NCBI RefSeq assembly: GCF_028372415.1
Contig: NC_092879.1
Span: forward strand, 92,769,741 to 92,833,740
From: Notamacropus eugenii
Lineage: Eukaryota; Chordata; Mammalia; Diprotodontia; Macropodidae
Reading direction: 5' to 3'
DNA: 64,000 nt
The position numbers were made by a program, and so were the translations under genes. Below, piece after piece: positions 6,601-59,030 of this stretch (the first letter of the stretch is position 1; each line of letters opens with the position of its first letter). A model generated the notes under the pieces. That model was not told where the DNA came from, did no database searches, and worked only from the letters and a program-made list of their open reading frames with translations.

Positions 6601-9600
6601 AGCAAAGGAGGAGAGAATGGAGGAGCTGTTGAAATGATCTGGAACAAGGAGGGAGTTCACAAGTGATAAGAGATTTCTAAACTGAAATAACTTTGAAGTT
6701 TCACTTTGTACCTAGCAAACTGAAAGATACCAAAAGACTTAACTAATTGATGCTAGAGAGTCTGGAGTAAGACAGGCACACTAACATACTCTGGTGGGAT
6801 TGTGAATTGGTCCAACCATTCTAGACAGCAATTCAGAATGATATAAGAAAAGTGATTATCTCCCCTTTGACGTAGAAATCCCCTACTGGTCATACTCCCA
6901 AGGGCATAAAAAATTAAGAAACAAAGGTGTAACATATGCCAAAATAGTCATAATGGCTCTTTTCGAAAGAGCAAAGAAATGGAATCAACAAGCACTATTA
7001 AACATCTTTGTGCCAGGGGCAGTGCCAAGTGCTGGAAACAACAAACTATAGTATCTGAATGTGAAGAAATATTACTGTGCTGTAAAAAATGATTAAGATT
7101 TCAGAGACATATGAACTGAAGTAGAAAGAAATCAGCAGCACTAGGAAAACAACATACACAAAGACTACAATAATGTAAACAAAAAGAATAACCAAATAAA
7201 GCTAACCCTTTGTGGTTATAATGAGAAGAGATGAAAGGTGCAGTCCCCCTTGAGCCAGCTGTACAAGCCGTCAGACGTGGCCATGGCAATGGATCTTGCT
7301 TAACTGTTTTTTTGTAACAAGGAAAGGCTCACCAGAGGGTATGGGGGTTGGGAGTATATATCTACAAATGTTTCGGAGGGAAAAACAAAAGGCAGCAGTA
7401 AAACTTTATAAAAAGTCAGAGGGCAATGCACTTGGCATTTTACTGCAGTCACTTTGTCATGAAGCAGCACTACAAATATAGAATCTAGCAAAAGGCTTTT
7501 TGGAGCTAGAGTACTTACCACTGCAGAGGAGGAAGTATGTTGGAAAACAGATCCCAGCATTTTGATTTACAAAGAAAACAAGAAATCAACAGCAGAGATG
7601 ATGGATAAGAACCAGTTTATACCTCTCTGGTCAAGTGCAGGTGGCTTCAGCAGAAGGAGCCAGAGAAGATCCCAGCTGCTTCTATTTGTCAATTAATGAA
7701 TCACTACAAATGACAGACAGGAGGTTCAATACTCCACAAGCTGGTTACATGACAAGAGGTAATGGTAATAAACAGTTAAGTCTCAAAACACCAAAATGAA
7801 GCATGAAATTTCATCCTTGTATTTTAGCCTAGAAACCAGTGATAGGAAATAGTCATTCCCCAAATACAATGGCCACCTGGAAGAAGTAAAAACTAGTGGG
7901 TATTAGGAAAAGACTAGTCTAGCCATACCTGGCAAACATCCGCAGTCTTGTAAAAGGTTTTCTTATCGACGGTTTTCAAGCTTTCAATAATGCAGGGCAG
8001 GTCAACCAGCTTAGAGGGCAATGGGACACCATCCACACACACAATTCCATGACGGCCATCAGCTAAGGACAAATAAACAAAAGCTTCAATTCTGACATCC
8101 TTTCAGTGAAATGTAAGCCTCCCAGGGTTACAATAACAAGGACCTGCACAATAACAAGGTACGTGCATGGGATTTAATTGAGAAATCTACCATTTCTTTT
8201 AACAGTAAAGCTGTTAAGAGCTGTGCTATGTGACCAGTAGTAACCTCTGTGGAAAAATGCCAGCTGACATGGTGTTCACAACTCCCAACTCTGCTGGGAC
8301 TTGCTGAATTTCCCAATTAATGTTTGAGGACTGAATAGCATGGTGGAGCTGTGGATTTCTGCAGAAAATTTTATATGAACATAAATGCTACATTTTTTTG
8401 TTATTCTAAGCAGTCTATTCCACTCATTCAAACTAGTCCTCAGAAACATTCCTGTTCTAGAGATAGACTATCAGTTTTCTGAAATTAGAACACTGCAGGG
8501 GAGGTCATTGCAGATGTGTACTTTGTAGGAAGGGAAAAAAAACTGCACTTCTAGAATGGTGCTTAGAACCCACAATTATAGATTTGATCTCTAGTTCTGT
8601 CACGGAGAAAACTCAAACATAGTCCACAACTGTTATTTCCCCCAAAGCATGCAAATGACAAGGGAAACTTTGGTCCATTCTCTGGAACAGCTCACTGAAA
8701 CATCATCCATTATGGAAAGCAAGCTTCCTCCCAAGGTGGGGGTCTGAAAGGCTATCTTTATAAACAAAGGCCAGTGTTTGTTATTCCCTTGGATAAGGAG
8801 AAACCAAGAAGGCCGACTATATCAGACAGGAGACAGTAAGCATTACCTGTCTGATCTCTGGAAGCCAAACTCCGGTACAGGTACAGTGTACAGAGGTACA
8901 CGCCCATAGTTTTTAACCGTATTGCTCTTTGGACGGTTTCAGAGAAACCTGGGCAGATCCATGAGTGAAATGAGCAAATTCAGGAGAACAATGAATGAAC
9001 ACAGCAACAGCCATACTGTAAAGACAACAACTTGGAAAGACTTAGGAACTCTGATCAGCACAATGACAAACTGCAGTGCCAACCAACATACTGCCCACCT
9101 CCAGAGACAGAGAGAGGGCTGAGGAACTCAAGAGTACAGAGTGAAGTATAGCTTTTCTGGACATGGCCAATGTGGGAATTTGCTTTGTCTGACTTAAATG
9201 TTAGTAACAGATTTTGTTTGTTTGTTTGTTTGTTTTTGCTTTTCCAATGGTGGTGTAAGGGGAGGGGGAGGGGAAAAATGCTAACCTGAAAATAAAAGTG
9301 AGTTAAATAAAGTAAGAAAGACGTTGCCCTTTCACTTCTAAGGGACAACAAAGAGATATGGACTACTTACGATGTAATTCGATGGTTAATTTGTCTTTCA
9401 AGTTGGCATTTCCAGACTGCATTGCCTTTCTCACAGTAGCAGCATATTCCTGAAAAGAAAAAAAAACTTCTAAGACTGGTCACATGCATACCAGATGGCA
9501 GAAGAGATGGGCCAGGGAAATTCTGCTCTTAAATCTAACCTTCAAACAGTTTCTGGACAGACACATAGAGACAACAACTACTTGGCGCTCCATGGAGCCA

Positions 9601-12600: not shown

Positions 12601-15060
12601 ACAACTGCCACATTATCTCATTTGATCCTCACAACTCTATGATGTCTTAGATGCCATTATTATCCTCATTTTACAGGTGAGCAAATTGAGGGTGCGAGAG
12701 GTTAAATGACAACTCAGAGTCATACAACTAGTAAGACCTTGAAATTAGGTCTTCCTAATTACCAAGTCTGGCACTGGCATTTTATCTACTATGCCACCAT
12801 TATTAATATACATTCAGCCCTACAGGTGACTTAAGAAATTTTTGAAAAGGCACAGAAAGCAAAGAGAATTTAGCATTCCATAGTATCCTTTTTTACCACA
12901 GAAACCTAGACACCCAACACAAGAGTGGAGGGAAAAACAAACCATAAATGTATTACGTGTGATAGTCATTTCTTCTCTTTTTTTGCTTCATGCAAATATT
13001 TATACAACCTGTATCATTCAAAAAGTAAATATATATGTAAGGAGGGAGGGGAAAAGTCCATTAAAATAAAAGTCAGAGTCTGAGGATCCTGTCAACCCTT
13101 TAACACCACCCCAACCTTCTACTAATAGCCAATCTTCTGCTATAGCAATTTAAACTTAAGACTTCTCAGGAGAGCTACTTCTAAAATACTTTGGCTAGGT
13201 AACTCAGATTATTCTGGGTTCTCTGGGGGCAAAATGACTTTTTAGTATGGGTTTTCCAACAGGAGGATGCCCATACCTGGGGTAGGGGGTAGTGGGCAAG
13301 AGAAGCCAGTTAAAGGGATAGAGGGAACATTTTGACTGGATTAAAAAAAAACAACCTGATTTCCAATCAATAAAGCAGTAAACTTTCTGGAGTACCCTTG
13401 GAAAAGTATATCCCATTCTTTCTGAATATACTCATAAAGTTTTAAATTTAGAAATTATATCAATCTATTAATATTTTAATAAATTAGTTCTAAATTAATC
13501 TATTTTTAAGTGCATATGCATGGTAAAACCTACAGTTTATTTCCTTCATACTAAATACTACAGTAGGGTTTCCTGAAAGCCAAAGGGCACAAGACTGCAA
13601 AAGGTTAGGAACCCCTCCTGTGATGTAAAGAGGTGTAGTTTGTTAATTCCAGAAGCTCTGTGTTTTATTCCTAGGTCTGCCACTACTTGTGTGAGCTGGG
13701 GGAGTTACTTTAATCTCTCCAAGTTTTAGTTTACTCATTTGTAAAATAATTTAAGGACAGCAGTAAAAGATAAGGAAATGATTGAGGAAAGGCTGCTGGT
13801 TATAGAATTCTCTCAGAGTTTTATTTCTCACCATTCTTTCCAGTCATGGCTGACTGGTAATGCTGAACCTTAAGCAAGAAGATCTCCCACATTTTCCCCC
13901 AATCATCACCTCGATGTGATTCAGTGGCAACAGCATTATCTCCCTAGCTAGAGGTTCAAACCCCTGGCTCTACCCTTTTAATATTTTTATTATTCTTAGA
14001 GTCTATCTAGTCCAGGCCCTGAGAATTCATTTTAAAATGATTTTGATATCAGTATTTTCACATAACTGGTTTCGTATTGTAATTTTGGAACTTAAAGAAG
14101 CGAAAATGTAATTAGAAGTAAACACTTTTGGGGAAGGACAAGGTCTAAAGAGAGAACAGAAGAAATAGAGGCAGGATAGGATGGAGGGAAATATAGTTAG
14201 TCTTACACAACATGACTATTATGGAAGTCTTTTGCAAAACTACACATATGTAGCCTATATCGAATTGCTTGCCTTCTCAGTGGGGATGAATGGGGAAGGA
14301 GGAAAAGATGGAACTCAAAGTTTTAAGAACGAATGTTGAGAATTGTTTTACGTACAATTAGGAAATTCAGGTAATGGGGTATAGAAAGCTATCTTGCCCT
14401 ACAAGAAAAGAGAGAAAATGGGGGCTAACAGAAAGGAGGGCAGACTGGGGGAGGGGCAATCAGAATGCACGGAGTTTCAGGGTGGGGGAGGGGAGAGATG
14501 GGGAGAAAATTTGGAACTCAAAATCTTGTGGAAATGATTGTTGAAAAGTAAAAATAAGTAAATTGGAAAAAAAAAAAGAAGAAAAAAGTGAAGATGTGCC
14601 CCCCCCCCCCAAAAGGCTTAGCGGCCTCATTTTGCAGAGGAGAAAACTGAGGCCCCAGGAAGTTAAGTATCGGGAGCTGAGGCGAAAAATCAACGTTTTC
14701 CCTCCACCTACAGTGCCTTGGGGGCAGTCCTTTCCCTTCGCCTCAGTTTTTCCAAGAGTAAAGCCAGGGGCTGGGAGAGGACCGCCTCAGGCGTCCCCTC
14801 TAGCTCCTAGGCCTTCTCCATTTTTCTTCACAGCTCCCTGTCCCGGCCCCCTCCTCCCCTAACAGAAAAGTAACGGCTCCGTCTCCCGCAGCCGCGGGGT
14901 CGGAGTTTACCTCTCCTCAAGTGCCCAGGGCCACTCGCCAAAGCCCCAAAGACGAGGACGACCACCGCCGCTCACGAGGAACGCCGCCGCCGCTGCCGCT
15001 CAGCTCGGGAATCACGACCTCCAGACGACGACGACTTGACGACGGCGGGAGGCGCAACGC
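1..15060 (-). CDS. TAF7L: TAF7L (TFIID subunit 7-like), 3'-truncated by window edge
   Basis: TFIID subunit; TAF7-family proteins bind TAF1 and regulate its acetyltransferase activity, and TAF7L is the X-linked, germ-cell-enriched paralogue. Coding exons on the minus strand: 10646-10711, 9371-9449, 7929-8062, 3696-3822, 3325-3383, 1943-2015, 1444-1557, 926-1138, 652-764; all junctions are GT-AG and phases join to one open frame of 326 codons. The start MSKNQEDPPHELENQFILRL and the later SPDVEKEV, LLSTDAEAVSTR and EEDLER blocks match the TAFII55 N-terminal domain and the following TAF7 region. A long Asp/Glu tract lies at about residues 232-252. The frame ends in LALK at a donor, so the last exon(s), carrying the C-terminal coiled coil, lie left of base 1. 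Multi-exon structure and position next to TIMM8A/BTK argue for TAF7L rather than autosomal TAF7, which is an intronless retrogene in human. Confidence 0.93.
652..764 (-). CDS. TAF7L: TAF7L coding exon 9 (residues 289-326)
   Basis: Encodes VVGLQKQIDVMKGK through VANLALK, the start of the C-terminal coiled coil. Donor GTGAGC follows. The expected NRFQAVL-type continuation was looked for in 1-640 and not found, so it should be beyond the left edge. Confidence 0.9.
926..1138 (-). CDS. TAF7L: TAF7L coding exon 8 with acidic tract (residues 218-289)
   Basis: Encodes EYEKFQEICHDISS, about 21 consecutive Asp/Glu residues, then NTEEDLER. The acidic run is coded largely by GAT/GAA/GAG triplets and forms a (TCA)n/(TCT)n simple repeat on the plus strand, so it is prone to length change. 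Acidic tracts here are usual for TAF7/TAF7L. Confidence 0.93.
1444..1557 (-). CDS. TAF7L: TAF7L coding exon 7 (residues 180-218)
   Basis: Encodes WEIITEDELKDTDNQ then SPGMSSYKQGRSSS, matching the TAF7 WEIIAEDE...SSPGMS region. Acceptor TGTCAG, donor GTACAG. Confidence 0.9.
1943..2015 (-). CDS. TAF7L: TAF7L coding exon 6 (residues 156-180)
   Basis: Encodes FFESPDVEKEVRRLLSTDAE through AVST, a block highly conserved in the TAF7 family. Acceptor GCCCAG, donor GTATCC. Confidence 0.93.
2381..2522 (-). repeat. Marsupial tRNA/CORE-SINE (MAR1/WSINE-like)
   Basis: Minus-oriented copy: begins TTATTGTTATTTAGTC, contains the TTTGTGACC...GGGGTTTTCT core and ends near CTATCCACTGACCCACTGAA. Middle portion shortened. 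Lies in a TAF7L intron. Confidence 0.8.
2698..2815. repeat. AT-rich simple sequence
   Basis: Alternating TA/TATTTA and TATATG/TGTGTG runs in a TAF7L intron; no coding or splice signal. Confidence 0.7.
3325..3383 (-). CDS. TAF7L: TAF7L coding exon 5 (residues 136-155)
   Basis: Encodes VTLPLKNIRQRRFRKTAKKK, the basic end of the TAFII55 domain. It joins directly to the next exon (FFESPDVEKEV), as in TAF7; human TAF7L, as I recall it, has additional residues at this point. Confidence 0.92.
3696..3822 (-). CDS. TAF7L: TAF7L coding exon 4 (residues 94-135)
   Basis: Starts MLVSSVDGDLYPPVEGPV and carries a lysine/glutamate-rich stretch before FIWNHG. Acceptor TTATAG, donor GTAAGT; ends one base into codon 136. 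Confidence 0.93.
4317..4480 (-). repeat. L2 LINE 3' end fragment
   Basis: Minus orientation: motif TTTATTAAGTACCTATA, then GGACACTGTGGTAAAC and AAGGAACTTACATAC, the inverted L2 3' tail (CR1-clade LINE). Confidence 0.7.
5590..6665 (-). repeat. L2 LINE fragment(s)
   Basis: Minus-oriented L2 internal sequence. Typical landmarks, read on the plus strand, are the stretch near GGAGACAGCAGCGTCATGAA and CTGCAGGGAGGTCAAAAAGA. A (TCTG)n tract and a short MIR-like piece (about 6010-6070) interrupt it. Confidence 0.7.
6690..7400 (+). repeat. L1-like LINE 3' fragment
   Basis: Contains the marsupial L1 ORF2-end signature GTGGGATTGTGAATTGGTCC and later CCTTTGACGTAGAAATCC, followed by degraded 3' sequence. 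Confidence 0.6.
7929..8062 (-). CDS. TAF7L: TAF7L coding exon 3 (residues 49-93)
   Basis: Encodes the core of the TAFII55 domain (PDGRHGIV, SKLVDLPC, ESLKTVDKKTFYKTADVCQ). Acceptor CCTTAG, donor GTATGG; ends in phase 0. Confidence 0.93.
9215..9237. repeat. (GTTT)n microsatellite
   Basis: About five GTTT units in a TAF7L intron just upstream of coding exon 2. Confidence 0.8.
9371..9449 (-). CDS. TAF7L: TAF7L coding exon 2 (residues 23-48)
   Basis: Encodes EYAATVRKAMQSG followed by NLKDKLTIELH of the TAFII55 domain. Acceptor TTTTCAG, donor GTAAGT; ends one base into codon 49. Confidence 0.93.
10050..10265 (+). repeat. MIR/MON1-like CORE-SINE
   Basis: Contains AGAGTCACAGAACCTGGATT, ATCTTGGGCAACTCATTTTG and CTCATCTATAAGATGGTA landmarks of MIR-type SINEs. 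Diverged. Confidence 0.7.
10646..10711 (-). CDS. TAF7L: TAF7L coding exon 1 (residues 1-22)
   Basis: Start codon at 10711 with A at -3. Encodes the extreme N terminus through ILRLPP and ends at the donor GTAAGG. The start matches the TAF7 start, with no extra N-terminal extension visible. Confidence 0.93.
10906..11156 (+). repeat. Marsupial tRNA/CORE-SINE (MAR1/WSINE-like), near full length
   Basis: Starts GGGGCAGCTGGGGGCCCAGT, with CTGTGTGACCCTGGGAAAGT mid-element and AAATGGGGTCACAAAGAGTC near the end, closing with AACAACAAC. In TAF7L intron 1. Confidence 0.9.
12556..12803 (+). repeat. MIR/MON1-like CORE-SINE
   Basis: Contains ACTTAAGGTTTGCAGAACA, ATCTCATTTGATCCTCACAA and CCTCATTTTACAGGTGAGCA, the typical MIR-family core and 3' region. 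Confidence 0.75.
14195..14580 (+). repeat. L1 3' end with A-rich tail
   Basis: Carries the marsupial L1 3'-UTR landmarks TAGCCTATATCGAATTGCTT and, further on, ATTTGGAACTCAAAATCTTG, ending in an A-rich tail near 14565-14585. It sits about 300 bases from the CpG island. A partial repeat of the same tail motif (GGAACTCAAAGTTTT) occurs inside it, suggesting two nested or tandem tails. Confidence 0.7.
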
Positions 15061-15480
15061 CTGAGAATCTGGGCGGGCACCGGAAGAGCTCGGCGGCCCC
15101 GCCCCCTGGCCGCGCGCACGCTGTGGGCGGAGTTCCGGGCGGAGGGCCGCTCAGAGCCAGGCAGCGGGCGTGCGGCGGGGGCGGGGCCGGGAGGCTGGGG
15201 AAGGCGCGATTTTCGCAGGTGCGGCGGCCGGGCGGCTCTGGGGCGGTGCTCTCTAGCTCTCCCGCGCGCCTGCCTCCCTCCCTTCGTGCGCTCCCTCGTC
15301 GTGTGCGCGAAGCGCGGCGGGGCTTGGGTGCACGCGCTCGGCTTGGGAGAAAGGTAGGGGTGACGGCGGGGGCGCGGGGGAGGGGAGCCGGAGGAGGCCA
15401 GAGGAGGACCGTGGAAAGTGAGGCGAGGCCCCTGCCCCCTTGAAGCGGCCCCAGCAGCGTTCCGCCTCCTCGTTAACATT
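14880..15480. promoter_or_regulatory. CpG island, likely shared TAF7L / NIPA-like promoter
   Basis: Strongly GC-rich with dense CpG, in contrast with AT-rich flanks. Leftward it contains the candidate TAF7L exon 1 donor at 14911. Rightward, donor-like sites occur at about 15213 (CGCAG|GTGCGG) and 15352 (AAAG|GTAGGG), and the next plus-strand exon with a start codon is at 17776. No TATA box is evident. Two genes pointing away from one island suggests a bidirectional promoter; use by the rightward gene is an inference. Confidence 0.65.
14911..15040 (-). other. TAF7L: TAF7L 5' noncoding exon (candidate)
   Basis: Reading leftward, a good donor (GTAAAC, exon end at 14911) lies inside the CpG island. 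The next acceptor is just before the start codon: a pyrimidine run then AAG at about 10720. This suggests a noncoding first exon in the island and an 8-nt leader before the ATG in the second exon. The transcription start is not defined by sequence; the right end given is a guess. Confidence 0.45.
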
Positions 15481-15489
15481 TTGGAAACT

Positions 15490-17775
15490 TTGTATCTCCT
15501 CCCCGCGTCTGTCAAAATTCCGGGTTACCAGAGAAATGAAGAAAAATCATCCACTCTCCCTCCCCCCACTGGGCCCGGCCCTAAAGCCCCGGCCGCCTCC
15601 CCAAGAGGGGGAGAATTGGCGGGGCAGAAGCACAGCCTGCCATCTCCCCAAAGAAGACTCAGCCTCCAAGGATTGCCCCTCTGAACCCCGGGCCTTAAAA
15701 CAAATTGGGGGAAGATGGAGAACCTGTGGCCTCGAGGCCATGAGTGGCCCCCAGGTCCTCCAAGGTGGGCAGGCTTCCCAGAACAAATCCCCTTCAGAAA
15801 AGACTCCAAGAGTCCTCCCGCAGGACTCAGTGTCACACCTGTCAGAGCAGGTATCCCCGTCCTCAGAACAGAAGGTTTTCCCGCCTTCCCAGCAGATGGG
15901 CTTTGGGTTGGATTTAATGTCCCAAACCCAGTTTGGGGGGGCAGAGATGAAAACGATCCCTGCAGTCTCATTGGGAAACTAAAACATAACGGAGGGAAAT
16001 GATAAAGGAACGGGACTAAATACGAGAGCGAGTAATATGGCTAAAGAAAATGGGGTTTTTGTTTCATTTTTAAAATGTGTATTTCTAGAGGAAAGTTTAA
16101 TCAATGGAATTTTTGTTTTACATAAGTTTGTATTGCTGTCTTGGGCTGGAAATCTCTTTCACTCTGTCGTTTTTGTGGCTTCTGCTGCTCTAAAATTTGT
16201 TTAGAGTCCTTTCTTAGAGTCCAGGTATTTTATGGGCTGTAGGGGGAGAGTTTTCTAGAGGTGTCCGCCATCCTGACTCCACCCCCCCATTTCTGTCTTT
16301 TGGGTTTTATATCACCATAAAGTACCTCAATATGCTTCCCCCTCCCAACGAGCCATCTCATATAGTAAATAGTATTTTTAAGACAAAAAAAAGAAAAAAG
16401 AAAAAGAGGAAATAATCAGCACAAATGATCAATGCATCAAAAAAGCTTGAAAATGTAGGCAACATACAACATGTGTGGGTTACCTTCTGTTTTTTTCCCT
16501 GGAGTCATGCCTGTTCTTTAATATTTTGCAACTAAAACTTAGTTTTTTACTTTTAAAAACTAACTAGTTACATTTACGATATTTTTAGTCTGGTGGGAAA
16601 ATGTCTATGATTTTGTATTCAATAAATGTTGAACCTTTTAAAAAAATTACCAGGATTTTCACCAACAAAATATGTTGTGGAAACCTTGTTGTGGTTAAGT
16701 GAATGTGTTGTGGTGTTAAGTGAATGATAAAGAGAATGGATGCTGTAGAAAATCAGGGAAATAAAATGATTTACAGCTAAATTGGAACTTGAGGAATGGG
16801 CTGAAATAATGTGAGAAAATGGGTGAAAGAATCTGTAAATCTGAACATAAGGGTGGGACAAAGAGTAGAGAAATTGAGAGAAGAAGGGACTTGGGGCATT
16901 AGGGATTAGGACAGGTTGAATTGGAGTGAGATTAGAATTTAGAAGTAATAATTTGACATTGGAAGATTGCAGCCATGGCAAGATAGCCATTTTTAGAAAC
17001 ACTGCATGCTGGATTTGTTCTGTAAACTGGAGGAGAATTATAGGGTGTTGAATCATATCACTGGAGAGTTACTCTAAATGACTAGAAACTGAGTCCAAAA
17101 GCAGGACTGCTATATAGACATCCATCTTTGTATGCATACACACATACATGCACATTAGACACATGCAGTATCTCTTCAGTATTCTTTAATACAGCCCTCC
17201 TCCTGCCCCTCAAACAAGGTCCTTCTGGACCTTTTTTTCCTGCCTCCAAAATCTGTTTCATGATAGCAAGCAGACAGCACATGTGTGGCACCATCTCTAT
17301 ATTTAAATTGCCTGGTCAGTGCCTTAGTTAACAAATGCTCAAGGGTGAGGAGGGCAACGTGGTTGTTGGTCTGTCTTTGAAAATTCAACTTTAAAAACAC
17401 ATCTAAATCCTTTCTCACTGCTTAAACAAACCTAAAACATTTAAGCAGCTTCAAGGAAAAAGCTAACCACCTGTCTGTTTGCCAGGGATGAAATAATGAG
17501 GTAATATGTACAAGAATAAGGGTTAAAGTTGAAGCAGTTTAATTATCTTAATAAAAAGCAAACGGTCACAGAAAATAAAATTACTCAAAAATACCGAAAA
17601 AGAAAATTACTCAGTTTGATCAGCTATCTTAATAAGTCATCAAGACTGGTTTGACCACTTAGTGCTGTCCTCAGAAGGAACGTTTAGCCTCTGATCTTCA
17701 GGAATCCACAGTGTAGGTGTTGAACTTTATCAAAGGGCAAGTGTCCTTACATCTGTTTTTTGAAAATCTCAACAG
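15490..17775. other. NIPA-like gene upstream region / first intron
   Basis: Runs from the CpG island to the start-codon exon. Apart from the MITE fragment it contains A-rich and T-rich stretches (16380-16410, 16490-16640) and an unrecognised segment at 16640-17060. One or more noncoding exons may lie here; none can be placed. Confidence 0.4.
15704..15805 (+). mobile_element. hAT-type MITE fragment (left half)
   Basis: GAGAACCTGTGGCCTCGAGG followed by GGTCCTC and CAGAACAAATCCCC matches the copies at 34598-34799 and 49622-49725. The right terminal repeat is not visible here. Confidence 0.6.
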
Positions 17776-20700
17776 GACCAGTGCTGGCCAGAGATGATGG
17801 CAGGACACAATAACTTTTATATTGGTCTGAGCTTGGCTCTCATATCCAGCACTTTCATTGGTGCAAGCTTCATCCTGAAGAAGAAAGGACTTCTTAAGGT
17901 TGCCAGCAGAGGTTCTGTGAAAGCAGGTATAGTAAACTCTATTCCTGGGCTGCTTTGTCAGAATCTTTCTTTCCTCTTGCTTCCTATCTTTGGCCTGAAA
18001 AGATAGGTGGTGTTAAGATGGAAAAGAGACTAAATGGGAATCTGTAGGTATCATTATTAACATACTTGCTGATTGGCTCTTAGAAAAGGTTGAAATTAGT
18101 TCAAGGATTGTTTTTGGGATTGTATCTGAATTTGATTTATCATTATCCATGATAATGGAGGAGAGGAATAGCAATTGAGAATTGAATGTACTTTCAATAT
18201 TTGGAAGATGCTGTGCTGAAGGCATAGCAGTTATTCAGTAAATCTGTAAGAATTTAGGGTTAGAATCAAAGGACAATAGTTGTCAGGCTGAGATTTTTAA
18301 AAGCTTGTTACATTCAGATTCTTTTATTCTGAGTTTGTGGTCAGAAATTACACTGTATAGACCAGAATTGCGCTTTATCTATGTTGGCTCTTGCCCCTTG
18401 GTATGTGATCTGCCCAAGGAGCAGTTTTCCTTCCCTGGATATATTGAAAGAAACTGCCATGGGTACGGAGTACTGTGATCAGTCTTTTGCATTGGGGATT
18501 CACAAGTTCTGGTCAAAATGCTCCTGCTTTGGAGGACTAAAAAAAGGAAATAAAAAGAAAAACCTTTAAGAAGTTGATGGGAGTAATCTAAGGCCCCTCC
18601 AAATTATGGCAGGTCAGGAGAAATGAGAAAATTGTCTTTTCATCTAAAGAAAAATGTTCCAGTCGTACTATTGCTCTCTTTTATTTCCAGTCATTTAGGC
18701 TGGATTTGTAATTTCTTTTCCTTCTTTTAGGTCATGGTGGCCATGCGTACCTAAAAGAATGGCTCTGGTGGGCTGGACTGATATCCAGTAAGTTTTTTTG
18801 GTTAGTTCTTGAAATTGCAGCCTGAAAGATATATAGCAAAATAAGGCAACCAGTTATTTTAGAATAAGCTGGAAAGATGACCATTCTGCATTAAACAGTA
18901 TAAAACAGTATTTTCTCTTGTAGTTCTATTTAACCAATTGTCTTCTGGCAAAGATACACATAATTATTTATAACAGATTTTTGATCACATTGATTATCAC
19001 CTGGTCTGGTATAAACCAAAAAGCACTCAGGATTTCCTCTTTTGCTCCCAAATGAATGTTTCTCTACACCATGAAAGCTACAATATGTAAGTATACTCAC
19101 GTATAGTCACATAGGTAGAGACCTATTTTCTCTCCCTATTCCCTTCTGAGAAGCCTCTTTAGTATCTTTTCCTTGTCCATTTTCCAGGTAGACAAATTAA
19201 CAGCAGTGAGAGTGTGGCTCCTGGAGCCTTGGCTGAAAGTCCCATCACTTGGGCCTTTCACTGCTCATAGATGTCTTCCTAGGAGATCTGTACAAACCAG
19301 GGTGACAGTCTGGGGACAAGCATTAGCACAAGACACTTGGAGGTGCCCAGGGGCCTCGAATGCAAATCCTGACTACTCAGGGTTTTGCTCTAGTAAAATG
19401 GTCTCGTGATCATCTGGAAATAAGATGCTCATCTCCTCCTGTTAGCTCCACATTTATTGATGCCTAGTGCAATTCGAATTAGTGCGTAATGTGCCATTCT
19501 TGCTTCCTGGGGTTACACTCTCAATCTGCTAGGGTGGCAAGCAGTTTACTGGTACAGGATTCTAATTTCATTCCTGCTCGAGGATTTATATCATCAAGGA
19601 AGAAATTGTAGAGAAGAATTAGGTAAAGAAGAATTTATTAAGCAAGCGCATCTAAGAACCCAAGACTTTGCATTGGGTAGACTTGGCTTTAAAAACTGGA
19701 TGGATGGATGGATGGATGGATGGATGGATGGATGGATGGAGTATTTATCATGTAGAAAACATTAGGCCAAGCCCCGGGAGCTGCAGATAGAAAAGTCAGA
19801 CAGTCCATGATCTTAGAGAGTTCACATTCTAACGGGGGGAGAGGGAACAGCCCATTTGGGACTTTCCCACTACAAGTGTGATAGAAAGGTCCCTGGGTCC
19901 AAAGCCACTGTCTCAATCAAGATCTGATGAGAGATGGTGGTCATCCTGTCAGGCCTCTTCTTTAATGGCATTTCCACTCTTAAAATCATATCAGGCTCTG
20001 ATGTTGAACCATTGGACAGGGCCAAGGACTTTGGTGCAAGAACTTTTTTTTCTAGGTCTTCAGTAACTGTCTGTATCACCTGCAGGAGGAGTGGAAGAGT
20101 CTGCTTCTCCACAGGAGTTGCTGCCCAGGGTTGATAGCTGAGGGCATTGGGCTGGAAGAAATCCTATTCCCAAGGCCCTTGGATCCAGGGTTCTAGGCTA
20201 TTAACTGTTGGGATCTGAAGGGAAATAGATGGTGGTCAAGGTGGTGATGATAGTGGTTTCACTTGTCTGGCACATGCTGCGTCCTGTTTTTCCCTCAGGG
20301 TGCCTGACTGCTTCACCTAGGCTGTCTTGCCTGCTCTGTGTATGTGACAGTTGGTGGGGCTGGCTGGCCCATTCTCCACCGGAGTTGATGATGATGATGA
20401 TGGTAGGACCGGTGGTCTGGGAGGTGCTACTACTCCCAGGGCTCTCGTGTCTGTCCACCTGTTGGTGGCCATTGGTCAGCATTTGTTGCTGATGGTGATG
20501 AGGAAGATGGGCCTCTTCTCCAGGATGATTTCTCCCCTCAAGGATGGCTGTGGGGGTTGGGCTGGAAGCAGATCTGGTGGGGTGGGGCCATTTCCATTCC
20601 CAAAGCTTTTGGGTTTAGGGTCCTGGACTGTCTCCAGCAAGATCTGATGAGAGATGGTGGTCAGTCTGTAGTGGCTTTAGATAACATTGTCCTCATGCTG

Positions 20701-22742
20701 AGTTTTTCTTGTAATGAAGATCACTTTCTTAACCAAGAAAGTTGCTTCTCCTTTGCAGTGGGGGTCGGAGAAGCTGCCAATTTTGCTGCCTATGCTTTTG
20801 CCCCAGCCACACTAGTAACGCCCCTGGGTGCACTGAGTGTGTTAATCAGGTAAGCAATATTCAGGTGCTTTATTTGAGTCTGTGTCCCAGCAACCTGAAG
20901 TGATGCTGTATTACTGCTCAAGATATTTTACTCCATTTTTTCAGTTTCCTTGTTTTCTTACATTCTTTTCCTAAGTTTGGTTCATAGAAGTGTTTTACTT
21001 CTTAGGAGAAAAGTTTTCTTTCCCTTAACTCTCTCTGTTTTGGGGAGAAAGTTTCACTTTGGAACTTCTGGAGTCTACTGTTGTATGAATTCTTTTTCAA
21101 GAACAGACTGTTTCATTCCTGCCCATCAACCCTGACCCAATTTAAGTGTCTATTTATTGCATTAACTTTTTTTGTTTGTTTTATCTATCTTCCTGTGTCC
21201 TCTACTGGTTCTCCCCCTTACTTTTTTCTTCCCAGCATCTCCTTGGTTCTGTTAAATACTTAGCTATCTCACTCTTGTTGAAGTTTTACGTAATACAGTG
21301 AAAACTCTTGTGAACCTGGTTGAGGAACTCAGAATCCTCCCTGTTCCATGCCAGTGTGGTATTGATTTATAGATGAGTGTTATTGGTGAAGGAATCTCTG
21401 CCTGGGTTTATTGACATGTTTTATGTTTACCCTCAGTTCAATTTTATCCTCTTACTTCTTGAATGAGAAGTTGAACATTCATGGGAAGATTGGTTGTGTG
21501 CTAAGTATTCTTGGCTCGACAGTGATGGTGATCCATGCCCCCCAGGAAGAGACCGTCTCCACCTTGGCAGAGATGTCTGAGAAACTGAAGAGTCCAGGTA
21601 CCAGACAGGAATGCTAACATGATTTTGATTTAAAATACTTTAGTATGACAAAAGCCTTGGTTGGAATTTGAGGGGTTTTTCCTCCCTTGATAAGAGAAGG
21701 CAGATGGTTTTAGTGGTCCCTGCTTTCAACACTATTCCAATAGGATATTTCAGTCCTACTCTGATGTCTCATTGTAACATGGAGGTGCTTTCTCTAGATT
21801 TGTGCAAGCTCTGGTATGTATAGGTTCTAAGCTGAAAAGATTTCAGATATACTTCTGCTGATGGTGTCTGCTGTCTGCTGTCTGAGGACGAGCAGCAACT
21901 CATCAGCTGGTTGACCACTAGCTAATGAAATCTTTGGTCAAGGCAACTGATATGTTCCATCTCCTACTTGTGATTCTTTGTTTTTCTAATTCACTAAACT
22001 CCAGACTCACAGCACCTGCCTCTGTTTCTGCTGACAGTAATCTGAGTACATCTGGCAGAAAATCAAATTCCATGGTAACTTCTTAGAAGCCTTCCCTGAA
22101 TCCCTTCAGGGAGAAGAAACTCACTACCTTCTGAGAGAGGCCTTAACCCTCATGGATAAAATTAGTTGATAGGAAGTTTTTCCCCAACCTCAAGCTGAAA
22201 TTTGCCCCTTGGCGGCTTCTATCTACTACTCTTAGTTCTGTCTGGGGCCAAGCTGAGCAAGGGTCATTTCTCTTCTTTATGATTGTCTTGATACAGCTAT
22301 CCGGTTCCCCCTCTGGCTTTCAGCATCCCCAAGTTCCTTCAGCTAATCTTTCTATCACTGTCCTGGTAACCCTCCTCTGAATGTTCTCTGGCTTATCATT
22401 GTCCTTCCTAAAATGTAGTACTCATGTGAACAGGGGCAGCTAGGTGGTGCAGTGGATAGAGCACCAGTGTAGGAGTCAGGAGGACCTGAGTTTAAATCTC
22501 ACCTCAGACACTTGACACTCACTAGCTGTGTGACCTTGGGCAAGTCACTTAACCCCAATTGCCTCATCCTGGGTCATCTCCAGTCATCCTGATGAATATC
22601 TGGTCACTGGATTCAGATCAGATGACTCTGGAGGAGAAGTGAGGCTGGTGACCTGCACAACCCTCCCTCACTCAAAAACAAAGTCAAGTACAAGTCGTCA
22701 TTATTTCTCTGATGGCATGGTCTTCTTTGGCAACAAAGGATG

Positions 22743-22782
<40 letters not shown>

Positions 22783-25700
22783 TGAACACACTGTCCACAG
22801 TGAAGACTGGTCAGGGCAGAGAGACGCTGGAATGTTTATCTCCCTAATCTTGGACACAATATCTCTCCTAATGTACCTCAGTGATGCCTTAGCTTTTTTG
22901 GCTGCCATCCCAGTTACTCATTGGATTTGTCCTAATTCACTATGCCCCAGGCTCTTTTGGAGAGACTGTGGATTAGCCATCTTGTACTTGTAAAACTGAC
23001 TTGTCTTAATTCAAGTATGATACCACAGGAATTGATAATTTATGGAATTATGAAATGGGGTAGGCAGGCCTGGTTCTTTGGATGCTCACTGGCCAAGACC
23101 ATGAGGGTGGTGGGGAGTGAGATTGCGATCAAACTTTAAGAAAGCACCAAGGGTAGAGGGAGGAACAGGTACAGAAAGTATAGAGACAGCCAACAAAAAG
23201 GGATACAGAGACACACAATGTAAGAATAGGAGATAGGGCGGCAGAGGAAAACAGGCATCGTAGGAAGGGGAGGGGGAGGAAGAGAGATACCGAGTTACTA
23301 GGGATTATTAGAGTTGGGAACCCTTGGCAGCATGGACCCACATGGAGAGGAAAGAGTGCTTAGAATTTGGGTAGGGGGGACAGATTTATTCATATCTGTG
23401 CCACTTTGGAGTGAATTCATTAACATATCCACGTCATTTCAAAGTTCTCAGCACCCTTTGGTGTTCTGCTGGACTTACTACAGATATTGGGAACTTCTCT
23501 GAGATTTCTATATCATAGAACTCAAAGGCCTGACAAGAAAGCCCAGATGACTTCCCCTGAATCAGCACTTGTTACCAGAATGTGATTTTTGGTCAAGATA
23601 TGATATAGTTTGTAAATTATGCTCCTTTTATCTTTGGAACAGCTTGTTCACAACTTCTAGGTTCCCCTTTGCAACCTTATTTCCTGCTATTACCACTTTA
23701 AACCAGCTTCTTAGAAACTTACTTACCATGCTAACTAGAAAGGAGGGGGTTGTAACCAGAGGGAGCAAAGTAAGATGTGGCTTTGATGTACCACATCTTT
23801 CCCAATTAAACTCTGTCTTACTCACTTTGCCCGAATGGCCTAGCCTGTGGAGGTCCTTGAGGATCCTAATTGGGTCATCCTTTCTAGGTTTGGAGATACG
23901 TGTTATCTATGCCTTTATCTGAGTCATTGGTTAAATAACATTAAACAGCACTGAGCTATTTGACACAGATCCAGGGTCTGGGGACATCTCATTCTGGATG
24001 TTCCAAATCGAACTCTATTACTTTCCCACTTAAATTTGCCCTCCATCCTGACCTCCTTGTTTCCACTGATGCTTCCTTGTCACTGGAGATCGAAACCTTG
24101 GTTTCATTTTTGTTCATTGGTTCTCAACCAAGCATCTACTATGTAGGACTATAGCACCACCAGGGACAACACTGTCTTTCAACCCTTTCCCTTTGTTTTA
24201 CATTTGTTGTCTAGGTTCTTAAATATCCTGAAATTATTTTCCTATTTTGTCTACCAGCTAGAGAGGAAGTGTGGGTGCTGGGAAGAGTCTAATCCCCACC
24301 CTCTAAGTTGCAATGCCTCCAAACTTGGAAGGGACCTTTAAGATCATTGAGTCTAATCTCAACCCCATGGCTGTTTTCTGTCTTCTCTGCAGGAGTAAGC
24401 AAGTTAGGCAAACACCTCCTAGCTCTATTTCTCCATTATTTTATCACATTTTTCAGAGTTCAAGGTACATTTCATATAATTACCCAGACTTAATAATTCA
24501 TATTATTTCTAACCTTTTTGTAATATTTTAGGCACCCTAATGGAGCTCCTTAGCAAGAGCACTACTTCCATTTGGAGAATGTATATATTTCATGGCTCAA
24601 AATCCTATTAGCCATTTTCTCCATAATGAAATCTCTGCTAATGTGCCTAAACCCTGATCTGATGTGTCTCTCCCCCTGCCCCATAGGTATCTCTGGTGTA
24701 CTATCCATCTCCACCTCTTCATATTAAACCTTTCTGGATGGGGACAGATAAAAGGAGAAATTTAGAACTAAAACCTTACTGGTTAACATGATTAAAGGAC
24801 TGACAAATTGATTCACTGTGCAACTCTTGCTGAGATGTATAGTTATAATGATTTGGCATTTCCTATGCCTGTCAGACACGCCTAAAACATTTGAATGTCA
24901 ATAACAAAAATGTGCGTATAATAATCGATTTCAGATTTTTATGGATTTCATTCTCTTTTTTCTCAGGATTCATTGGCTTTGCCATGTGTGTGCTGGCCAG
25001 CTCCACTGCCCTCATCTGTGTGGTAGGACCTCGCTATGGCCACAGTAACGTCCTGGTATACATTCTGATCTGCTCTTCAATTGGGTCCCTTTCTGTGTCC
25101 TGTGTCAAGGGTTTGGGCATCACCCTGAAGGAACTATTTTCAGGGAAGCCTGTCCTGAAGGAACCCCTTGGTTGGGTGCTGTTGCTGTGTCTGCTGATTT
25201 GTGTAACAATTCAGATCAACTATCTGAACCGGGCTTTGGACATTTTTAGTACCTCAATAGTTACTCCCATCTATTATGTCCTTTTCACCACAGCTGTCAT
25301 GACCTGCTCTACCATTCTTTTTAAGGAATGGCAGAATATGGTCCTGGACAGTGTCATCGCCACAATGAGTGGTTTCCTAACCATAGTTTTTGGCATTTTC
25401 CTCCTTCATGCCTTTCGAGATAGCCCTTTTTCTCCTGACCCAATATATTTTTCTCTGAGGTCAAATTCAGGTAATTCCCATGCTCCTCCCTGGATGGAAG
25501 ATGAAGGGCAAAATCAGCCTCTTCTAGTTGGAGATGACCCCAACGAAGAGTTCCAGAGTATTGAGGTTGAAGAGGTTGAAATCTGTGAATCATCTTAGGC
25601 AGAACACTATCTTTTTCTGTTGGGTAAAGTGGCCTTTGCACTTTTACTTAAGATCTGCCCAGGCCTCTGACATCCAGCCAGACCAAATCAGATTATATTG

Positions 25701-26660
25701 TGGAGAGGAGCAAATTAATACCTAACTAGTAAGCAGTGGAGCAGCAGAACTTTCCCAACTGCCATATTGTGACTAAAATCTCATTTGCTTCACTTGCATA
25801 ATATGCTGAGTTATTGTAAGACATGGTGCTAGATGAATATATACACTGGTAAAGTATTTGTGAAAACAACCATCCATCCCTCATCACTAGTTTATACAGA
25901 AACCTAAAAGCACATGTTAGTCTGATTTACTTGTTACAGTTGGAGAATTCAAATGTTTTAATTGTTTAGTGAATGCTAGCTTTTTTTTAAAAAATGTTTT
26001 TGCAGGTGTTTTTGTGTGACTTTTAGTGCTAAGTGAATCCTGACCATCCTGAAGTTTGTATCGAGGACTTGAGTATAATGACTAATAACTGCTGCTTGGT
26101 AAGAGGATTCGATTCTAAAAACCACATTCCCGAGAGTAATATCCACCTCACCCCACCCCCAAGTTCCAGTACCTAAGGTCCTGAAGGACAAAGATTATTT
26201 AGCTACCCAGAATGCCTATTCTAGTCCTAGCTGACCCTGTTTTATACTTAAAGAGCTAGGTCTCCAAGCTTCCTATAAATGATACTATTAAAGTACATTT
26301 AGAGTCGCTCATAACGTAACATATTGGAGACCAAGGAGAGAAGCGGCTTAAATGGCCCTGTGTGTTTTGGGCTTAGCTTGGAGCAAAGAGTTCCTTTGTC
26401 CCTCACCATTTCCCTGAAGACTTCAAAATGTAGTGGCAGCCTCCCCAGGAGGCCAAACAGCAGTTATAGGTATTATACTTCCTGTCTGAAGACCATGTTA
26501 GAGTTTAGAAAGGTAGCAATGTACTGAGTCTATAGGAGGCTCACAGTGTTTGAAAGAGATAACCATTCACTGGAGTGTAACCTCCTTCAGGCCAGGGGCC
26601 CCTCTGGCTTCTATTTTTGTATCCATATTTGATGCTTAATAAATGTTGATTCTCTATGAG
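17776..26660 (+). CDS. NIPA-family magnesium transporter-like gene, NIPA2-like
   Basis: Predicted multi-pass membrane Mg2+ transporter (NIPA/Mg_trans family). Coding exons: 17794-17926, 18731-18787, 20759-20849, 21437-21597, 24967-25598; all GT-AG, phases join to one 357-codon frame ending TAG. Family landmarks are FILKKKGLL near residue 30, [15 protein letters not shown] at 47-61, [33 protein letters not shown], the [10 protein letters not shown] loop, [20 protein letters not shown] and [10 protein letters not shown]. About nine hydrophobic segments are present. The acidic tail ([17 protein letters not shown]) is not like the NIPA2 tail I recall. Length is near NIPA2 (360 aa); the sequence is closer to NIPA2 than to NIPA1. 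Two consecutive ATGs open the frame; the second (17797) has A at -3 and G at +4 and may be the real start. Multi-exon and intact, so not a processed copy. No NIPA gene is known to me between TAF7L and TIMM8A in human. Confidence 0.9.
17794..17926 (+). CDS. NIPA-like coding exon 1 (residues 1-45)
   Basis: The exon begins at about 17776 after a CAACAG acceptor, so it has 18 nt of leader. Encodes the first transmembrane helix (about residues 8-28) and the ILKKKGLL motif. Donor GTATAG one base into codon 45. Confidence 0.9.
18731..18787 (+). CDS. NIPA-like coding exon 2 (residues 45-64)
   Basis: Short exon encoding [18 protein letters not shown], nearly invariant in NIPA2 as I recall it. Acceptor CTTTTAG, donor GTAAGT. 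Confidence 0.92.
19697..19740 (+). repeat. (TGGA)11 microsatellite
   Basis: Eleven perfect TGGA units, 44 bp, inside NIPA-like intron 2. Confidence 0.95.
19880..20670 (+). repeat. Diverged direct repeats in NIPA-like intron 2
   Basis: A 26-bp segment containing GATCTGATGAGAGATGGTGG is identical at 19918-19943 and 20638-20663. A related block (CTGAAGGGAAATAGATGGTG) lies at about 20214-20233. Sequence upstream of each also matches loosely (CATTCCCAAAG/TATTCCCAAGG, then a GGGTCC/CAGGGTTC block). Confidence 0.55.
20759..20849 (+). CDS. NIPA-like coding exon 3 (residues 64-94)
   Basis: Encodes [20 protein letters not shown] then [10 protein letters not shown], the family's most conserved membrane segment. 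Acceptor TTTGCAG, donor GTAAGC. Confidence 0.92.
21437..21597 (+). CDS. NIPA-like coding exon 4 (residues 94-148)
   Basis: Encodes [20 protein letters not shown], the [13 protein letters not shown] loop and [10 protein letters not shown]. Acceptor CCCTCAG, donor GTACCA. Confidence 0.92.
21598..24966. other. NIPA-like intron 4
   Basis: 3.4 kb, no further exon needed because the frame joins 21597 to 24967. Holds a near-complete RTE-tailed SINE (22433-22777) and MIR-like pieces (about 24306-24400). The 23,120-23,320 segment is purine-rich and unassigned. Confidence 0.45.
22433..22777 (+). repeat. Marsupial tRNA-SINE with RTE-type tail and (CA)n end
   Basis: tRNA-like head (GGGGCAGCTAGGTGGTGCAG, TGTGTGACCTTGGGCAAGTC), then a different body (GGAGGAGAAGTGAGGCTGGT, TCTGATGGCATGGTCTTCTT), ending in (CA)n. 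This is the RTE-mobilised SINE type of marsupials and is diagnostic for the lineage. Confidence 0.85.
24967..25598 (+). CDS. NIPA-like coding exon 5 (residues 148-357)
   Basis: Terminal coding exon with the remaining hydrophobic segments and a cytosolic acidic tail; stop TAG at 25596-25598. Acceptor TTCTCAG after a pyrimidine-rich run. Confidence 0.92.
25599..26660 (+). other. NIPA-like 3' untranslated region
   Basis: From the stop to the first canonical AATAAA (26638-26643). The last 100 bases resemble an L2 3' end. Confidence 0.6.
26638..26643 (+). terminator. Polyadenylation signal, NIPA-like gene
   Basis: AATAAA about 1.04 kb after the stop, followed by T/G-rich sequence. It lies in L2-like sequence (CTCCTTCAGGCCAGGGGC ... 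GATGCTTAATAAATGTTGAT). Confidence 0.6.
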
Positions 26661-28864
26661 CAGTATGGACACTTCTGGGCTTGTTCTTCCATTCAAGACT
26701 AGCGTCAGCCACCTTTCCAATTCCAGTTCCACAAGGAAATTGATTCCAGTCAAGGGGAAATTGAAACTGTTCTCCTGCAACCTGGAGCTCAGTTTCCTCT
26801 AGTTATAGATTTCTTAAACAGCCTCACAGAAAAGGTCCTTGAACCATCTCTTTGTCACCCATTTCATTTTACAGGTCCTCTGTACCTTAGTTTTGGAGAG
26901 TTGCCTGGCTTGTTGGGGGTCACACAGCCAGTGTAACATACAAGAACCAAGGCCAGCCCTTTCTACTAGGCCAGCTGCTTCTGTCGGTGTTAGACAACTA
27001 TTGATTGATCCATGCAAATGATATGACTTAGAGTTATTGTGTATGGCTGGAAGAATCTAGAATTTTTATATTTGTAAAGAATGGGTTGTAAAATTTGATC
27101 ATAGGAGTGAGAGCTGGTCCAATTCCTTCATTTTACAGGTCAGGAAACTGAGACTGAGATTGATGGATCCAGGGTCACACAGACACTAAGAGGTCAAGCA
27201 GATGCTCTTGCTCCTTGGATGATTCCATTTCTCTACAAGGGCTGCTAGGTGGCGCTGCAGCAGCCAGAATGTGTGAGGTGGGTGGGGCTGAAGTCAGGAA
27301 GGCTCATTCTGAATTCAAATCTAGCACCAGACGTTTACCTGTGTGACCCTGGGCAAGTCACTTCACCCTGTTTGCCTATTTACTCATCTGTAAAATGAGC
27401 TGGAGAAGGAAATAGTCCAGTATCTCTGCCAAAAATACCCCAAATGGATCACAGAGTCGAACATGCCTGAAAATGACTGAATAAAGCCATTTCTCAAGGG
27501 GGAAAAAAAGAGTGGTCCAATGGTTTTGGTGACTAAACTAGGTGATAAACTAACTTCAGATTTACATGAGGTTGCCTTAATTTTGTTGTTATTGGTAAAC
27601 AGCAAATATGAAGTGGCTGCAAAGTGTAAGGTATGGTGCTGATATACAAAGACAAGGAATTATTTGGCAACCTCACTATGTCCATGAATCACCATATGTA
27701 GAACAGAAACTGAGGTAGGGCTGGGGCTTCTTAGAGGAAGATTGGATTTAAGGCCAAGTTGGGAGCAGAGGCTGCCTCAGTGTGGTGTCAAATTATTCTG
27801 CCTGGGATGACTGGGGTGGCCTAGCTATTGCAGGATTTAAGAAGGGTCCTGGCTGGTAAGGACACTTATTAAAATAAAATCCTTGTCACCCATGCCCCTC
27901 CCTCAAACTCAGGATGGTTCAGTTTACCTCTACCAAACCTTTAATCCAATCTGGTTTTAATCACTCCTTCACTAGAGTGTCCCCAGTATTTGCATACTCA
28001 TTTTGTCTTGTTTTGCATTGTCTAGGTTCCTAAATATTCTGAATTTTCACATTTTATCTATCAGCTAGAGAGGAAGTCTGAATGCAAGGAAGAGTTCAAT
28101 TCTCCACCCCCCACCCCAAGTAGCAATGCTTTGAAACTTAGAAAGGATCTTAGTGATCTTAGATCAGAATCTAATCAGGACTCCACAGCTGAAAAACCCG
28201 AGGTCTAGAGACTGACTCAACCAAGGTATCTGGGGCTCTGAAAAATTCTTCTTAGCTTGGGCCCCCATTCCAAATCCTAATGTTCCACTGTACTACCTCT
28301 GCTCTAGTAAGCAGTTGGGGACATACAGCTAAGACACATAAAAACTTGAACATTTCTAAGCCACTGGCCTCTTCCTTTGTCATCTGTCCAGGGAGGAGTG
28401 TGGCTGGCAGCCATCACTTTGTTCAGCTAACAGACTTGATTATCTTGGGGGAATATAGATCAAAACTTCCATCCCCAGTGGCTAGAGGTTCTTCCTAGAA
28501 TTGTGCCTTACATAAAAGTCGCTCAGCAAATCCTTATTGAGTGACATGAAGTCTTGGCACCAGCCCATGCCCAAGTTTTAACTGCCAAGCCACCTAGCTA
28601 GTAGATGCAATGATGAACTTAAAATAGCCCTGGCACTGGAGGTAAAGGACGAGGCCCCGGAGCCCCAACTCTGTCTGCTGGGATGTTCAGCCAGCTTAGG
28701 ACTACTCTGAGTTGTCTGATCAGTGAAATGGGGAGACAGTGTCCACAACCATTCTGTAAGAAGCATGAGGAAAGTGTTCTGTAGATCCTGAAGTTCTACA
28801 AAAATGAGTACACAGGTGTTGAGTGGTGAGAACCAAGGAAAGAAAAGTTGTCCCAAAACCATGT
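26661..28864. other. Intergenic, NIPA-like to TIMM8A (tail to tail)
   Basis: Contains MIR-like pieces (about 26810-26990, 27100-27210, 28120-28220) and one full SINE. No gene seen. Confidence 0.5.
27239..27484 (+). repeat. Marsupial tRNA/CORE-SINE (MAR1/WSINE-like)
   Basis: GGGCTGCTAGGTGGCGCTGC start, CTGTGTGACCCTGGGCAAGT, then ACCCCAAATGGATCACAGAG near the end. Confidence 0.88.

Positions 28865-31640
<2,776 letters not shown>

Positions 31641-36304: not shown

Positions 36305-59030
<22,726 letters not shown>

Follow-up and report, generated by a model that had tools for sequence, protein, structure and literature searches.

A NIPA2-type transporter gene beside BTK on the X chromosome of Notamacropus eugenii: a likely fourth ohnologue of the NIPA2 group

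Why should an intact gene for a NIPA-family transporter lie between TAF7L and TIMM8A, close to BTK, on the X chromosome of a marsupial? We addressed this question in a window of 64,000 bases from Notamacropus eugenii (C25:92769741-92833740, without any N; C25, the X chromosome, spans 103 Mb of a 3.45 Gb assembly). A sequence-only reading of this DNA had placed a five-exon NIPA2-like gene at 17776..26660, here called the X gene, and proposed that it is either an ancient paralogue lost in placental mammals or a lineage-specific duplication. The X gene encodes a protein of an ordinary type at a location that is surprising. We consider it likely that it is an intact fourth ohnologue of the NIPA2 group, a product of the two vertebrate genome doublings (2R) that has been kept on the marsupial X. 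The gene consists of the following parts (positions are those of the window).

17776..17793, plus strand: end of the 5' untranslated region, directly 3' of an AG acceptor (...ctcaacag) at 17775/17776
17794..17926, plus strand: coding exon 1, amino acids 1-45, with a 5' splice site of the form gtatag
18731..18787, plus strand: coding exon 2, 57 bases, length as in NIPA2, NIPAL1 and NIPAL4
20759..20849, plus strand: coding exon 3, 91 bases, length as in NIPA2, NIPAL1, NIPAL4 and NIPA1
21437..21597, plus strand: coding exon 4, 161 bases, length as in NIPA2, NIPAL1, NIPAL4 and NIPA1
24967..25598, plus strand: coding exon 5, 632 bases including the stop, encoding the latter half of the membrane core, Ser242 and an acidic tail
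26638..26643, plus strand: AATAAA polyadenylation signal, the sole AATAAA within 25599-27000
about 19698-19741 and 22743-22779: short intronic tandem repeats of the X gene, (ATGG)n and (CA)n

All four introns run from GT to AG, and the spliced frame of 1074 bases comprises 357 codons and a stop. The exon count, the clean junctions and the frame length given by the sequence-only reading were thus reproduced, and its outer bounds agree with the acceptor at 17775/17776 and the AATAAA at 26638. The acceptor also points to a noncoding exon somewhere upstream of 17776. A chance open frame was ruled out: from base composition, the probability that a frame of this length stays open is about 2e-8, and each of the five alternative reading frames of the spliced coding sequence contains 13-30 stops. 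Differences between the X gene and NIPA2 at codon positions 1, 2 and 3 are 0.31, 0.19 and 0.59, a bias among positions in keeping with constraint on the frame.

The product matches the Pfam profile PF05653 (NIPA) over residues 7-299 with an E value of 6.1e-127, scoring 423 bits against a curated cut-off of 26.2 and covering profile positions 2-294 of 295. It aligns to the NIPA2 of solved structure (PDB 9z6n, 9z7r, 9z7t and 9z7s) over 311 residues at 72% identity without a single gap, so the NIPA membrane core that had been recognized earlier is indeed kept, and the ungapped match suggests the same fold as NIPA2. NIPA transporters have about nine membrane spans; hydropathy plots gave 8 peaks for the X protein, 12 for NIPA2, 9 for NIPAL1 and 8 for NIPAL4, a method too crude to count spans. 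Most likely, the X protein is a polytopic NIPA2-type membrane protein that moves Mg2+ across the plasma or an endosomal membrane.

To place the X gene among its relatives, we collected the family from the same genome. A NIPA-family search returned 30 exon-level matches and a search with the X protein 36, which in our reading represent NIPA2 and NIPA1 (both on C15), a NIPAL1-type gene (C23) and a NIPAL4-type gene (C1); the analysis gives family and position, and the labels NIPAL1 and NIPAL4 are our assumption. Further gene pieces, found on C14 and at 65 Mb of C15, are presumably NIPAL2/NIPAL3, and a weak match at C1:309.39M (E 0.2) was taken as chance. Models were built for NIPA2, NIPAL1, NIPAL4 and NIPA1 (the last from exon 3 on), with boundaries placed by hand at frame-keeping GT/AG sites. 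Coding exons 2, 3 and 4 measure 57, 91 and 161 bases in the X gene, NIPA2, NIPAL1 and NIPAL4 alike, and exons 3 and 4 of NIPA1 are also 91 and 161 bases long. Identity to the X gene is 60% over 329 codons for NIPAL1, 51% over 338 codons for NIPAL4 and 42.5% over 252 codons for NIPA1. Both NIPAL1 and NIPAL4 carry an N-terminal extension that begins at an upstream splice acceptor, whereas the X gene and NIPA2 start short. With four introns and exons 2-4 matching the paralogues in length, the X gene cannot be a retrocopy. True retrocopies do occur in the family: three intronless copies of NIPA2 on C2, with DNA identities to NIPA2 of 89%, 77-79% and 73-79%, carry stops and indels. The broken copies are as follows.

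C2:539.566M (L014): broken, intronless retrocopy derived from NIPA2, in a contig that ends about 3-4 kb away
C2:324.10M (L026): broken, intronless retrocopy derived from NIPA2
C2:322.69M (L027): broken, intronless retrocopy derived from NIPA2
C1:220.11M (L015): broken copy of the last NIPA1 exon, 97% identical, which need not be a retrocopy

If the X gene were a recent, lineage-specific copy of the species' own NIPA2, the two should be close, and nothing beyond family membership suggests that they are. Over the 311-residue core, the X protein is identical to its own genome's NIPA2 at 224 positions and to the solved NIPA2 at 223, whereas those two NIPA2 proteins share 304 (98%); at the 7 sites where they differ, the X protein matches the own copy at 3 and the solved one at 2. 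In a tree of six rows (X, own NIPA2, solved NIPA2, NIPAL1, NIPAL4 and NIPA1, the last as outgroup to the other genes), the two NIPA2 group with support of 97/98 and the X protein joins the pair; its branch is 0.64 long, against 0.029 for the own NIPA2 since its split from the solved one. Forcing X together with the own NIPA2 alone costs 5.9 log-likelihood (lnL) units and is rejected by the approximately unbiased test (p-AU 0.039), and synonymous divergence (dS) between X and NIPA2 is saturated or not estimable by both NG86 and YN00. A comparison of non-coding DNA at E 1e-3 returned no match between the X gene region and the NIPA2 or NIPAL1 locus. Against the NIPAL4 locus it gave one match, of 133 bases at 75%, in a stretch at about 22434-22565 of the window that is like a short interspersed element (SINE) and resembles, we presume, marsupial tRNA-type SINEs. 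We therefore reject a recent copy of NIPA2, an origin that we regard as next to impossible. Because the X protein is equally distant from both NIPA2, because the forced grouping is rejected and because dS is saturated, the duplication is older than the split of the own and the solved NIPA2 lineages; assuming that the solved NIPA2 is a placental's, it would also be older than the marsupial/placental split. Of the two origins first proposed for the gene, the ancient intron-bearing paralogue is supported by the four introns, the shared exon lengths, the saturated dS and the near-equal distances, and the lineage-specific duplication is disfavored by the tree and the dS; the core identities likewise gave no sign of the recent NIPA2 copy that would have overturned the earlier proposal.

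The age of the duplication leaves the question of place, for which the neighbors of the X gene are needed.

7917..8102, minus strand: TAF7L exon, open frame matching TAFII55_N (E 3.8e-19)
29715..29930, minus strand: TIMM8A exon, open frame matching zf-Tim10_DDP (E 2.3e-13)
37279..54846, minus strand: BTK, outermost matched TEC-family open frames, identified by likeness to TEC-family genes on C23 and C1
50683-50763, minus strand: BTK motif within the TEC-family kinase exons

The position between TAF7L and TIMM8A had been called correctly, with both flanking exons on the minus strand; the domain labels of the kinase frames are assumed. A genome search for the BTK motif, in which 150 of 245 candidates were scored, found such exons at no fewer than eight places, three of them near genes of the set formed by the X gene, NIPA2, NIPAL1 and NIPAL4 (hereafter the quartet), at distances of 25 kb for the X gene, about 110 kb for NIPAL1 and about 262 kb for NIPAL4. 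When the open frames of the window were compared with 200 kb of sequence taken from C23 and C1, the matches listed included two tandem TEC-type kinases on the minus strand of C23 (about 102.477-102.570 Mb), 3' of NIPAL1 on the plus strand, the nearest listed kinase exon being 19 kb from NIPAL1, and one TEC-type kinase on the plus strand of C1 (about 386.178-386.225 Mb). The order X gene (plus), TIMM8A (minus), BTK (minus) therefore mirrors NIPAL1 (plus), kinase (minus), kinase (minus), a tail-to-tail arrangement. NIPAL4 shares the wider kinase neighborhood, but it lies on the same strand as its kinase, with a CYFIP gene between them; NIPA2 differs again, adjoining a CYFIP gene and NIPA1, whereas the X gene adjoins BTK. 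CYFIP genes flank both NIPA2 (C15, 400.19-400.28 Mb) and NIPAL4 (C1, 386.30-386.38 Mb), and we take them to be CYFIP1 and CYFIP2, respectively; these labels, like TXK, TEC, ITK and RASA, are assumed, the analysis itself giving families and positions.

A third family extends the comparison to all four chromosomes. Among 84 matches of a ligand-gated-channel search of the genome, GABA-A-type clusters of 3-4 genes each lie on C1 (390.8-391.8 Mb), C15 (402.2-403.2 Mb), C23 (100.3-101.8 Mb) and C25 (71.5-72.1 Mb), so that every chromosome with a quartet gene carries one. Judged by eye, 14 of 20 receptor exons are alpha-, beta- or gamma-like, with all three kinds in each cluster; two of the 14 and two of the other six were checked against the PDB, and the best matches were GABRA3 for the C25 alpha exon and GABRA5 for the C15 alpha exon. 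GABA-A clusters are read as 2R products, and the human map positions are 4p12, 5q33, 15q11 and Xq28. These paralogous neighbors (TEC kinases at three of four loci, CYFIP at two of four, GABA-A clusters at four of four) are our reason for reading the X gene as a 2R ohnologue. One ancestral block with a TEC kinase, a CYFIP gene, a NIPA gene and GABA-A genes would have been quadrupled by 2R and then thinned by losses; the X gene, NIPA2, NIPAL1 and NIPAL4 would be the resulting quartet, with the X gene staying beside a TEC-family kinase, BTK, in the marsupial and apparently being lost in placentals. On this evidence, a 2R date for the duplication is inferred.

The same age could also result from a segmental duplicate of NIPA2 that arose after 2R, when the two NIPA2 lineages compared had yet to separate, and landed beside BTK by chance. 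The grouping of X with NIPA2 (79/94) and the absence from both of the N-terminal extension of NIPAL1 and NIPAL4 fit such a copy. However, it must have landed near the very kinase family that flanks NIPAL1 and NIPAL4, and in the tail-to-tail arrangement of NIPAL1; with about four TEC-kinase loci in 3.4 Gb, we put the chance of an insertion no more than 50 kb from any of them at 1e-4. In addition, the genome-wide family search found no NIPA1 match on C25, and none of the 26 CYFIP matches in the genome lies there, though the ohnologue reading needs a loss of CYFIP too. We regard a segmental duplicate as unlikely.

Several results weigh against a 2R ohnologue, beginning with the missing CYFIP gene on C25. 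The GABA-A cluster on that chromosome is 20.7 Mb from the X gene, compared with 0.7-4.3 Mb at the other three loci. In the tree, X is held to the NIPA2 pair by support of only 79/94; a grouping with NIPAL1 is weakly rejected (p 0.039), and at the 0.05 level the test does not reject one with NIPAL4 (p 0.056). The pairing of NIPAL1 with NIPAL4, the other half of a two-by-two tree of the quartet, was neither recovered nor rejected (p 0.37). Nor did the genome search find a retrocopy of the X gene, and thus it gave no hint of germline transcription. Of residues invariant in the three quartet partners, the X protein keeps 143 of 164, fewer than NIPA2 (143 of 147) or NIPAL1 (143 of 160) and more than NIPAL4 (143 of 185). 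Unique changes in X and NIPA2 number 31 and 9 with NIPAL1 as outgroup (p 7e-4) and 32 and 6 with NIPAL4; with the distant NIPA1 they number 15 and 12 (p 0.70), showing no rate difference. X thus appears to evolve faster than NIPA2 with two of three outgroups.

This excess of unique changes, three to five times the NIPA2 count except with NIPA1, would also be expected of a decaying gene, one that still has an intact frame yet is relaxed and heading for loss, as has apparently happened in placentals; a serine at the site of NIPA2 Asn244 fits that picture as well. Against decay, the 357 codons contain neither a stop nor a frameshift and the four introns retain all their splice sites, whereas the NIPA2 retrocopies, 11-27% diverged, have accumulated stops and indels. 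Moreover, the other four genes share 82 invariant residues, of which X retains 75, exactly as NIPAL1 and NIPAL4 do for theirs (75 of 82 each; NIPA2, 75 of 75; NIPA1, 75 of 116). We think it improbable that the X gene is decaying, and we continue to favor a retained ohnologue.

What such a protein might do differently is suggested by two features. The first is the residue at the Asn244 site, which is Asn in NIPA2, NIPAL1 and NIPAL4, Asp in NIPA1 and Ser242 in the X protein; NIPA2 Ile178 is likewise replaced, by Val176. Mutations of both NIPA2 residues are reported in childhood absence epilepsy; neurons with N244S failed to place NIPA2 at the plasma membrane and had 62% less intracellular Mg2+, and I178F also mislocalized the protein without significantly lowering Mg2+ (PMC4209971). 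The second is the C-terminal tail, which the sequence-only reading had described as acidic and unlike that of NIPA2; its last 57 residues hold 13 D/E and 1 K/R. Inspected by eye, the X tail lacks a canonical [DE]xxxL[LI] sorting signal, its nearest stretch being QNQPLL. The NIPAL1 tail of the same genome (L010, about 8946-9092) reads DRYALL, a canonical acidic dileucine pattern, and the X and NIPAL4 tails have related, noncanonical stretches in its place. Because of Ser242 and the acidic tail, the X protein may, barring compensating changes, have an intracellular role or be regulated differently; its delivery to the surface, or its activity, has probably been altered.

Upstream of the X gene lies a candidate promoter.

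14900..15500: CpG island, with CpG observed/expected ratios of 0.92-1.13 in three 200-base bins up to 15499

Placed between TAF7L on the minus strand and the X gene on the plus strand, this island is a probable shared head-to-head promoter. Inspection by eye showed candidate splice donors around 14900-15500 on the plus and on the minus strand. TAF7L is a TFIID gene that is testis expressed in other mammals. We tentatively raise the further possibility, which is rather less likely than not to hold in full, that the fourth NIPA2-type ohnologue kept on the marsupial X has turned into a regulated, mainly intracellular Mg2+ transporter, with the serine of N244S, a net-acidic tail and a promoter shared with TAF7L; in that case its loss would help to set the placental X apart from the marsupial one.

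For human, a report on Xq22 deletions lists DRP2, TAF7L, TIMM8A, BTK, RPL36A and GLA as the OMIM genes deleted, with no NIPA gene in the list or main text (PMC10201758), and human TIMM8A is given in another report as 770 bp from the 3' end of BTK (PMC7498534). The human order TAF7L-TIMM8A-BTK without a NIPA gene, as stated in the sequence-only reading, agrees with that gene list; the proposed loss in placentals gains from it too, on a basis limited to that one human list. On C25, a glycine-receptor alpha exon at 92.897M lies 102 kb from the X gene; human GLRA4 is farther from BTK. Outside C25, a GLRA2-like exon at C15:375.68M and a BTK-motif exon at C15:374.56M, which we take to be BMX, are about 1.1 Mb apart, and GLRA2 maps to human Xp22; this location would be expected where genes of human Xp22 lie off the X. 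Genes of the human X long arm thus appear linked on C25, with a short-arm gene elsewhere.

No paper on the X gene was found by title or start of abstract among the matches listed, some listings being partial (10 of 2,187 and 8 of 1,098), and an automatic annotation name such as "NIPA2-like" may well exist. A 2020 review counts NIPA2 and five paralogues, NIPA1, NIPAL1, NIPAL2, NIPAL3 and NIPAL4 (PMC7246448), and an account of marsupial-specific testis-expressed genes includes NIPAL1 and not the X gene (PMC11350913).

If the X gene is what we propose, it would put a name to a gene that the human X has apparently lost. With a fourth ohnologue by BTK, the quartet of the 4p/5q/15q/X paralogon would be complete and the family could be dated. 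The X gene would also offer a natural test of the NIPA2 site implicated in childhood absence epilepsy, since in this related transporter the mutant residue occurs within an intact frame.

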